Below are positions 24,241 through 27,200 of a stretch of 64,000 bases of DNA, piece after piece. Under the pieces are notes generated by a model that saw nothing but the letters and a program-made list of their open reading frames with translations, had not been told where the DNA came from and searched no databases. The DNA is from Beroe forskalii (Eukaryota; Ctenophora; Nuda; Beroida; Beroidae). Made by a program: the position numbers and the translations under genes. How positions within the stretch are numbered: the stretch's first letter is position 1; every line of letters begins with the position of its first letter. The stretch is from contig WFMF01000174.1 in assembly GCA_011033025.1 (NCBI GenBank), positions 62,001 through 126,000 of the forward strand, written 5' to 3'.

Positions 24241-27200
24241 ATGAGTACAGAGGTAATAATCCTTGCAATAATACCTGCCATAAAACGTTTTGATATAATC
24301 AATGGGAAACTTTTCTGGATAGTTTGAAATAAATGGCTTAAAATCAACATTGCATTAAATTTCATTCTGATTTTGCGTGATGACCAGCATAAGTTAATCT
24401 AAATAGATGAAATATTTGGGTATATGTGTAACACACCATTGGTACCCAGGCGGAAGAAACACCAGTTACTGAGGCAACAGAAACTGTGGCTGAAGAAACC
24501 ACCACAGAATCCCAGCCAGAAGCCAAAACTGAGCAAAATCCGGAAAATGAAAACTTGAGGAAGATTTTCACGGGTGGACTTAACAGAGAAACAACTGATG
24601 ACGAGATGAAGGCGTACTTTGGGAAATTTGGAGAGATCGAAGATTGTATTATTCTGAGGGATGCGAAGAATGACAATAGGTGTTAATTGATATAATTGAT
24701 GTTTCTGTGAGGGAGGTGGTGCCCCTAATTTACGCCTGCTTTTATCATTTTAATTTCTGTGAGAGGATGCTGTTTAAGGTCAACTGAAAGTATGATTTGA
24801 CAAAAACCATGGTTTAGGAAAATGGCTGTCAATCGAATCCATATTCCCGAGCCACTTGGTGAAGATTATTGCCTTATGCTCAAATGTTTTGGCTGTAAGA
24901 TGGTTGAAAAACCATTTCAATAGTGTTTGTGGAGCAGAAGTTATGCAAGGTTTTCTATTGTGGAGCATTTTTGTGTGGAGCGGGCATATTTCAAAGCTTG
25001 TGTGAGGTTTTGAAATTATTTTTGAGTGAACTTGGTACAGCATCATTATGCCCTTCAGATGCGATGAAAAAACGATTCAAAACCATCCAACCAATGTGGA
25101 GTAATAGGCAATAACTGGAATTTTGAGACATATATCTATCCAACCAGGGTGTGGAGTTGAGATAGAAACAAATGGTTTTCATCACAGCAAAATTCATTCT
25201 CTTGTCAATTTAAATCAATCATATTCGTTTATTAATTCCTACCAACCACTGTGGAGCAGGCATTTCAAAAAAGTCATGTCAAAAATCCATAATTTTAGAC
25301 TTTTGTGGTTTTCAGATATGGTGCAAAAAAAGTGGCTGTAAAAAGTCACAGGAACATTAAAATTTGCCCCAAGTTATCTATTCAAGTAACGTATTCCTAG
25401 GCCAACCATGTGGAGTAATTTAAATCTCTAACTAATCCAACCATGTGGAGCAAGGCCTGTTTGAATCGGAAAGACTGCTCCACTACGGTTGGATTGCTTT
25501 CCATCATCTATCTGAGTCTCTCATAACATTGATACATGAATAAACATCCTCTTGGAGCAAGATTCAACACCAAAAGAGCTCCAACCAGTGTGGAGCTGAC
25601 CTCCAAAATGATGGAAATACTAGTAAATCTAAAAGTAAGTTTTACTCAATAGTATGTCACCATTAAATAAGTAATTTGCACATTCTTGTATTGAAAATTA
25701 TGTTCATTTTATACTTTCTGTATAGTTAATTGATAGACCAACCATGTGGAGCCAGTTTTGAGTTAATTTGATCCAACCATGTGGAGCAAGGCCTGTTTGC
25801 TGTCCTGTACAACGTGTTATAATTGTAGTGAAACTTAATTAAAACACACTAATTGTACTTCCTACTTCCCGTCCCTATATTTCGAACTGCACAGCTCCAC
25901 ATTGGTTGGGGTCATGGTAAGAGAATTAATTATACCTGGCATGAATATTTAATCGCTAGGAGTAGAATAAATTTTGATTCGTATACGATTTTATAAATAA
26001 TTTTAACCGTCCCCTTTTTCAAAATGAACACGTATCTTGCTCCACATGGTTGGTAAAACGTAACTTGATGATTGAACGACTACAATGCACAATCATAATC
26101 CAGTTTCTGCGTTATATCTATTGCATAATACTATATATCATCCTAGTGGTACAGCTCAGGACTCCAGATGCCCTCAATGATGACCTTATTGCTCCACACT
26201 GGTTGGGTTGTTACTGTCGAGGACGCACACGAGATATATTTCTTAAGTTCTGATACCTCCATCTCAAGATTTGTTGGAATATTGAAGACGGGATACTATT
26301 TAATTGCCATAACTAAAATAGCCCCATTTTAAAGCCATTGCTCCACATGGTTGGATAGAATTGTTAAGTAAAACTTACCTGGGAATCTTTAATGATGTTT
26401 TCAACTCGAATTAAACCAAAAATTGCTAATTCTCAGAATTTTAGTATCCCAAAATCATCCGTGTTAAAACGTGATTTCTGGTAAAAGTTTTTGCCTCCAC
26501 ATGGTTGGATGAACGTGGTACAACCTCCACATGCATTGGAATAGTTGTAGGTTGATATTTACAAACTTCTGATGTCGTTTCTCATAAATTTGTGTCTTAT
26601 TTGAGTCCATGCAGCCCCAATAATAGTTTTTTACTATGAATGAGTTTCAAATAATCACCTACTCCACACTGGTTGGTCAATATATGATCATATATTTGCA
26701 TATATAGTATTCTAGAGACTCGTATTGTTCCCTTACAAACAAAATACGAGCTGATTTCAGAAAAAAATATGGTATTTTATGGCTCTGAAATCAGCCCAAT
26801 TTTCATTGTTTTGCTCCACAATGGTTGGCTGTACGATCTTGTCCAACCAGGGTATTTCTAACTGTTTGGAGTATCATGTACACATTCCATTTCATAGAAT
26901 AACCCCAAGTTCGACAAAAAAGCTTCAAGTGACAAATGGAGAATGCTAGTTTATATTGGTGTGTATGCTCCACATTGGTTGGATTTGAAATTTAAGAATT
27001 ATATAAAACAATAGACTAAAGTATTATAAGTAAAACCTCAAATTTTGAGATATATTAAGTAAAAAACGGCGGAGATATTTAACTTTCAGTCCATCTACCT
27101 CCAACCATGCTGAAAAACTGGTTGGAATTATGTCAAATCATACTTTCAGTTGACCTTAAGCGGCTTGAGTACATTTGGTCCTGGCTAGATGTAATGCATG

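Follow-up and report, generated by a model that had tools for sequence, protein, structure and literature searches.

Subterminal binding sites for transposases are already known, and four described systems come closest to the locus treated here. Elements of the CACTA (En/Spm) group end in CACTA, produce a 3-bp target duplication and carry subterminal repeats of 10-20 bp, direct as well as inverted, that are bound by the element-encoded TnpA, and there are many non-autonomous copies that retain the subterminal regions (PMC8195511). In the hAT element Hermes, numerous short subterminal repeats are recognised by zinc-finger (BED) domains that belong to the transposase; they lie near the tips, each end having five within its first 55 bp. 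The exact phasing of the left-end repeats is stated to be crucial, and the target site measures 8 bp (PMC10368747). Galileo, of the P superfamily, has a THAP-domain transposase with several binding sites in long, internally repetitive ends, i.e. 1.2-kb inverted repeats with homologous arms, and a higher-order synaptic complex has been proposed for it (PMC3688188). Sola2 elements have terminal repeats of 12-21 bp and AT-rich 4-bp target duplications (AWWT), and the available text on them does not mention site arrays (PMC3627910). The locus that we compare with these systems lies in the ctenophore Beroe forskalii, in a window of 64,000 nucleotides (assembly GCA_011033025.1, contig WFMF01000174.1, positions 62,001 to 126,000 of the forward strand), where an inverted-repeat element with an array of short, inward-facing sites sits in an intron.

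The element spans 2378 bp of the window (24778-27155), has perfect terminal repeats of 25 bp with TTAA at either flank, and is a non-autonomous cut-and-paste transposon. Its motif is bipartite, with the 7-bp halves CCAACCA and TGTGGAG separated by 0, 1 or 3 bp, and not the single 15-bp word described in the initial annotation. When up to one substitution was allowed per half-site, 17 sites were found in the window, every one inside the element (16 intact, and one near-intact and reversed at 25478), whereas 200 dinucleotide shuffles of the element gave 0.02 sites on average and one at most. The array reported earlier is therefore present, with corrected details: "at least 18" copies come down to these 17, and the outer left arm has three single TGTGGAG halves in addition. 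Eight intact sites point rightward in the left part and eight leftward in the right part, and the switch falls between 25773 and 25895, near the element's centre as had been noted. Ten of the 15 steps between intact sites measure 144-167 bp and the other five 35, 35, 53, 102 and 122 bp. Near-regular steps of 145-179 bases had been claimed before for the array; a regular period, of about 154 bp, is significant in its right arm but not in the left.

The genome contains further copies that share this terminal repeat and arrangement, whose absence the initial annotation had named as grounds for refutation. The leftmost 127 bp of the element occur at no fewer than 15 places, the window included, with 99-100% identity, and the rightmost 258 bp at no fewer than 13 places with 87-100% identity; counting a diverged copy on contig C987, this family (family 1) comprises at least 16 loci. 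Identical 4-bp flanks were found in 10 of 13 two-ended copies (the exceptions are L028, L029 and L031) and read TTAA, ATAA, ATAA, TTAT, TTAT, ATAT, ATAG, ATAA, ATGT and TAAT. Since TTAA appears in only one of these ten duplications, it is a property of the window insertion only and not of the element, and the earlier label "TTAA-ended" does not fit the family. The two-ended copies measure 2148-2959 bp and, when sites and ends are set aside, share 94-99% identity with the window copy; their arm junctions are of several different kinds, with a left arm of always at least 990 bp and a right arm of at least 1165 bp. The 15-mer CCAACCATGTGGAGC has 75 exact places in the genome and the one-gap form 88, all of which, by contig and coordinates, are within family-1 copies except one isolated match on C425. 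In viral contigs the motif was found as a single match in each of 32 contigs and never as an array, as expected by chance for a 15-mer. Five of the 16 loci (L017, L027, L030, L024 and L023) lie within 180 kb of a 537-kb contig (C1013:191531-371061) and surround the only full family-1 transposase gene found, a clustering for which local hopping is a possible explanation.

A second full-length protein, 44% identical to the family-1 protein and with its own C2H2 open reading frame (ORF), was identified at C740:67939-70065. The family-2 element on C740 is 6734 bp long, ends in GGTCATGTTGAAAGCTGTCTTGACA and has ATAA on both flanks. It contains 17 sites TCAACCA-n-TGTGGAG, mostly preceded by C (family-2 form CTCAACCA-n-TGTGGAG), of which nine forward and two reversed are on the left and six reversed on the right. 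An exact search for the two family-2 words gave 132 and 99 places (backward-read controls: 0 and 2), on at least 30 contigs among the matches listed. Six short copies were retrieved, all with the same ends and site map and five with identical 4-bp flanks; the duplications of the family read ATAA, ATAA, TTAT, ATAA, ATAT and TTAT.

The inward-facing site map is collinear between the two families. Left sites at 311, 466, 658, 699 (reversed), 802, 994, 1035 (reversed), 1138, 1330 and 1474 in the long family-1 copy pair with family-2 sites at 308, 454, 648, 691 (reversed), 789, 982, 1025 (reversed), 1124, 1317 and 1455. Measured from the right end, the right sites lie at 173, 327, 479, 647, 801, 949 and 1102 in family 1 and at 173, none, 478, 635, 786, 933 and 1099 in family 2. 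Half-sites TGTGGAG in the outer left arm are at 151, 182 and 197 in family 1, including its diverged copy L032, and at 88, 184 and 196 in family 2. The left-arm fit was reached by one of 20000 permutations of the family-2 intervals, and uniform random placement of sites equalled the observed fit in 8 (left) and 1 (right) of 20000 trials. Spacers of the two families align about as well as shuffled ones (z -2.3 to 3.0 in 14 pairs), with a mean z of about 1 that indicates weak residual homology.

Site letters and spacer length look selected while spacer letters do not, as measured among copies of the families. Between L032 and the window copy, site halves are identical at 108 of 112 positions and spacers at 641 of 882 (Fisher p 4e-10), with 21 of 27 in the terminal repeat. 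The six family-2 copies compared with the C740 element gave summed values of 774/780 for halves and 9807/10795 for spacers, which are not independent because the copies are related to one another. Site halves were without protection in three family-1 copies (L021, 0.933 against 0.972 for the rest; L026, 0.930 against 0.940; L031, 0.955 against 0.963), as would be expected if constraint ends when a copy no longer moves, and in the remaining, recent copies sites and spacers alike are nearly identical. Concerning length, about 980 bp of the L032 left arm differ from family 1 by 242 substitutions and only two 1-bp insertions or deletions (indels); against the long copy, 120 transitions and 123 transversions were counted there. 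In L026 and L031, which have diverged furthest among the short copies, both arms together show 35 indels of at least 2 bp against 157 substitutions (p 6e-14), and the left arm by itself 13 against 54 (p 9e-10), counts that were tallied by hand and whose force is lessened by the choice of both copies as controls once their divergence had been seen. The 2-bp limit was set because 1-bp indels of recent copies with almost no substitutions may be assembly errors; if all indels of all copies are included, the left arm has 85 of them with 121 substitutions and the right arm 119 with 120.

The period of about 154 bp is found in the right arms of both families, where a uniform null reached it in 3 and 2 of 1000 trials, and the family-2 left arm has a period of 167 bp (11 of 1000). 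No significant long period emerged for the window copy's left arm (831 of 1000), and none of the four arms tested showed significant helical phasing of 10-11 bp. Nucleosomes might set such spacings, with sites in linkers or in register on phased nucleosomes, which would refine and not oppose recognition by a transposase. The periods of three arms and the constraint on spacer length agree with this idea, as with the nucleosome-length phasing suggested earlier, but the left arm of the window copy with its 35-, 53- and 102-bp steps does not, and we rate it as rather unlikely.

In that left arm, 25435-25463 is identical to 25771-25799 over 29 nt, and 25729-25799 matches the first-pair region of the long copy with 77% identity across 71 bp. 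Both are remnants of a 336-bp tandem unit that was multiplied in the left arms of other copies: it is repeated several times in L017, the C1013 copy, whose right arm is unexpanded, the number of units differs among copies, and successive units of the long copy are 77-96% identical to the window arm. Right-arm spacers compared among themselves gave no satellite-type alignment of one with another. By the spacer alignment that had been proposed as a check, the claim of unrelated spacers fails for the tandem units of the left arm. A tandem origin of the extra left-arm units stands; that the whole array is an ordinary decayed satellite captured by a transposon is hardly credible, as spacers diverge while sites remain intact, and the map is kept between families whose spacers are near chance similarity. 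The resemblance to CENP-B boxes in a satellite was likewise rejected, the right arm being without homologous monomers and the 336-bp unit occurring only in the left arm of expanded copies, and so was that to a CRISPR array, in which identical direct repeats, with spacers of a single orientation, adjoin cas genes; here the orientation switches, site length varies and numerous copies are interspersed through the genome of an animal. By their construction the sites of the left and right arms are complementary and could pair in the intron transcript as a ladder of short helices. The long copy, however, has 23 listed left sites against four right ones, gap bases differ between sites so that not all pairs would be perfect, and neither the terminal-repeat distances nor a constraint seen on either strand and in many contexts needs RNA, which makes this design very improbable.

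A long relative codes for C2H2 fingers and for a protein of 727 aa whose core is predicted to be RNase H/integrase-like. Among 29 aligned members D346 and D469 are invariant and D428 is nearly so, and D346-D428-D469 is the probable triad of an RNase H-fold core. Pfam DUF7869 (PF25273) matches two of the 29 aligned relatives (best E 1e-6); the 727-aa protein itself matched neither DUF7869 nor a hAT family in Pfam, and a literature search for the name DUF7869 found no paper. A sequence search against solved structures returned nothing relevant, and the rows of the fold search are without Sola, hAT or other transposase families, which is no evidence against them. With a simple finger-to-DNA recognition code, fingers 2-1 of family 1 are predicted to read GTG-GAG, which equals the right site half in all six positions, a quality of fit reached by 1.6% of the 841 ordered pairs from a background of 29 fingers, own fingers included. 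The site difference between the families, GTTGG(A) versus GTTGAG, parallels the prediction for finger 3, which shifts from GGA to GAG. We regard this match between finger code and site as a weak lead only.

Based on the sequence data we consider it probable that the element is a non-autonomous DNA transposon whose subterminal arrays at both ends are the predicted recognition sites of its own C2H2 transposase, which would also agree with the transposase-binding sites proposed in the initial annotation. Indirect support comes from the confinement of the sites to two related transposon families, the kept letters, the collinear map and the C2H2 fingers. The finger ORF and the core ORF would form one gene, and its fingers would bind CCAACCA-n-TGTGGAG at many sites in both arms. 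Nearly all sites face inward, and each lies at a set distance from the terminal repeat; many protomers might be loaded on them, and the bound multimer would join both ends, the set distances aligning them for the core. The RNase H-fold core would then cut at the terminal GGTCA and insert with a 4-bp target duplication, and selection driven by transposition would preserve the letters of the sites and the lengths of the spacers but leave spacer letters free to drift. CACTA TnpA, the BED domains of Hermes and the THAP domains of Galileo offer close parallels for such a way of working.

A protein of the host, for example one of its C2H2 factors or a protein of insulator type, might bind the sites instead, and the element might use it for expression, escape from silencing or targeting. 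The sites are short and C2H2-like, C2H2 genes are many in this genome (at least 140 scored matches), and selection on site letters would look identical. The 14- and 15-bp words are, however, absent outside element copies apart from the C425 match, the transposase gene itself supplies C2H2 fingers, and mirror-image inward orientation with constant distance to the terminal repeat in two families fits end recognition better, for which reasons we find a host protein improbable.

Several observations weigh against recognition by the element's own transposase as set out above. Five left sites of family 1 (364, 623, 959, 1295 and 1371, the last reversed) and its right site at 327 are unpaired in family 2, and the interval permutation was not significant for the right arm (5571 of 20000), in which intervals are all alike. 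The only full family-1 transposase locus found is without the outer right arm. Foldseek alone gave nothing below E 0.001 for the predicted core, and in a second structure aligner Argonaute chains scored nearly as high as integrases, which makes the core RNase H-like rather than specifically integrase-like. The remaining three finger pairs score 4, as do or exceed 16% of the 841 pairs, and fingers 3-4 of family 2 score equally on the family-1 site and on their own. Finally, relative to C740 each of the six family-2 copies has 4-19 gaps and 127-188 substitutions, four of the copies having a gap of 23 bp, and 1850 bp of the L032 left arm have 13 short gaps besides 453 substitutions, so that the length lock is strong but not absolute.

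Terminal repeats with a fixed-length duplication, together with an RNase H-fold transposase with DDE/D residues (by predicted fold and integrase-core match), place the element in the cut-and-paste DDE/D class. TTAA is the defining target site of both piggyBac and Kolobok, and its single occurrence among the ten matching family-1 duplications agrees with neither. CACTA does not fit the GGTCA ends and the duplication of 4 rather than 3 bp; the subterminal repeats are a likeness in layout and not membership, and the sites here are about 150 bp apart across 1.0-2.6 kb with conserved spacer length. The hAT elements are defined by an 8-bp target duplication and a BED-hAT transposase, and the 4-bp duplication, the C2H2 fingers and the lack of a hAT Pfam match exclude them, Hermes included. 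Unlike in Galileo, the arms here are non-homologous and only the sites match. Only the target duplication makes Sola2 a candidate: the duplications are AT-rich and 4 bp long, WTAW in seven of ten family-1 cases and ATAG, ATGT and TAAT in the others. Among the hits of the protein searches, which bear no family name, no Sola2 protein was identified. As piggyBac, Kolobok and CACTA each lack agreement in a defining feature and Sola2 agrees in the duplication only, we leave the element as a DDE/D lineage without assignment to a superfamily. A relative of the core at C558:735344-737234 (L058, L059; 28% over 151 residues) has a different N-terminus, at least two ORFs and no C2H2 fingers, with repeats of ACGGAAGGA nearby, and is possibly another element of the same transposase group; no site array was seen there among enriched 9-mers across 20 kb.

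By eye, the window copy makes up about 94% of its intron in an RRM (hnRNP-like) gene, and RRM-type ORFs at 16370-17254, 21944-22378 and 24520-27400 look like an hnRNP-like gene cluster. Just inside the right terminal repeat, at 27101-27127, CCAACCA and TGGTTGG halves face each other; corresponding words are absent from the last 170 bp of the family-2 element. Elsewhere, the window contains a tandem array of about 5.5 copies with period 143, also 276 (47205-47983), a GC-rich 23-bp tandem repeat of 12.6 copies with several open frames (32895-33186), and, towards both ends, ORFs that have long identical protein segments in common (9531-12736, minus strand; 62728-63639, plus strand) and by eye belong to a repeated reverse-transcriptase-like element.

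Table 1. Coordinates of the element, its sites and the surrounding intron in the window (LE, left end; RE, right end).
Feature	Position	Strand	Basis or remark
Host intron around element	24680..27227	+	boundaries by eye; donor 24680 or 24682; RRM-type frames either side
Left target-site duplication TTAA	24774..24777	.	identical 4 bp at both flanks
Non-autonomous transposon, 2378 bp, oriented LE to RE	24778..27155	+	terminal repeats, target duplication, other copies
Left terminal inverted repeat GGTCAACTGAAAGTATGATTTGACA	24778..24802	+	repeat comparison
Half-site TGTGGAG, LE position 151	24928..24934	+	same position in L032
Half-site TGTGGAG, LE position 182	24959..24965	+	same position in L032; family 2 at 184
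Half-site TGTGGAG, LE position 197	24974..24980	+	same position in L032; family 2 at 196
Site, 15 bp	25087..25101	+	motif scan
Site, 17 bp, 3-bp gap	25140..25156	+	motif scan
Site, 15 bp	25242..25256	+	motif scan
Site, 14 bp	25402..25415	+	motif scan
Site, 14 bp	25437..25450	+	motif scan
Near-intact reversed site, one change per half	25478..25492	-	same place in L032 and family 2
Site, 15 bp	25581..25595	+	motif scan
Site, 14 bp	25738..25751	+	motif scan
Site, 14 bp, last forward	25773..25786	+	motif scan
Site, 15 bp, first reversed of right arm	25895..25909	-	motif scan
Site, 14 bp	26040..26053	-	motif scan
Site, 15 bp	26192..26206	-	motif scan
Site, 14 bp	26341..26354	-	motif scan
Site, 14 bp	26495..26508	-	motif scan
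Site, 15 bp	26662..26676	-	motif scan
Site, 15 bp	26814..26828	-	motif scan
Site, 15 bp	26968..26982	-	motif scan
Right terminal inverted repeat	27131..27155	-	repeat comparison
Right target-site duplication TTAA	27156..27159	.	identical 4 bp at both flanks

Taken together, the initial observation was partly confirmed and its interpretation partly supported. Neither this transposase group nor length-locked arrays turned up in print in our literature search, papers of other licences being outside its reach. More tentatively, the element might represent an unassigned animal DDE/D lineage whose C2H2 transposase reads a kilobase ruler at each end, with bipartite sites at selected, sequence-free and roughly nucleosome-length distances, as the length constraint and the 154-bp period of both right arms suggest. 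The transpososome might then form on phased chromatin, or else as a large multimer that wraps DNA, and fingers and sites would change jointly from one family to the other; we hold this to be doubtful at present. Within one genome, the copies allow one to measure which property of a subterminal array selection keeps. For a transposase group without a Pfam name, they make it testable whether long-range geometry matters when transposon ends are recognised. The two families with their collinear maps are a natural experiment on the joint change of transposase and sites.
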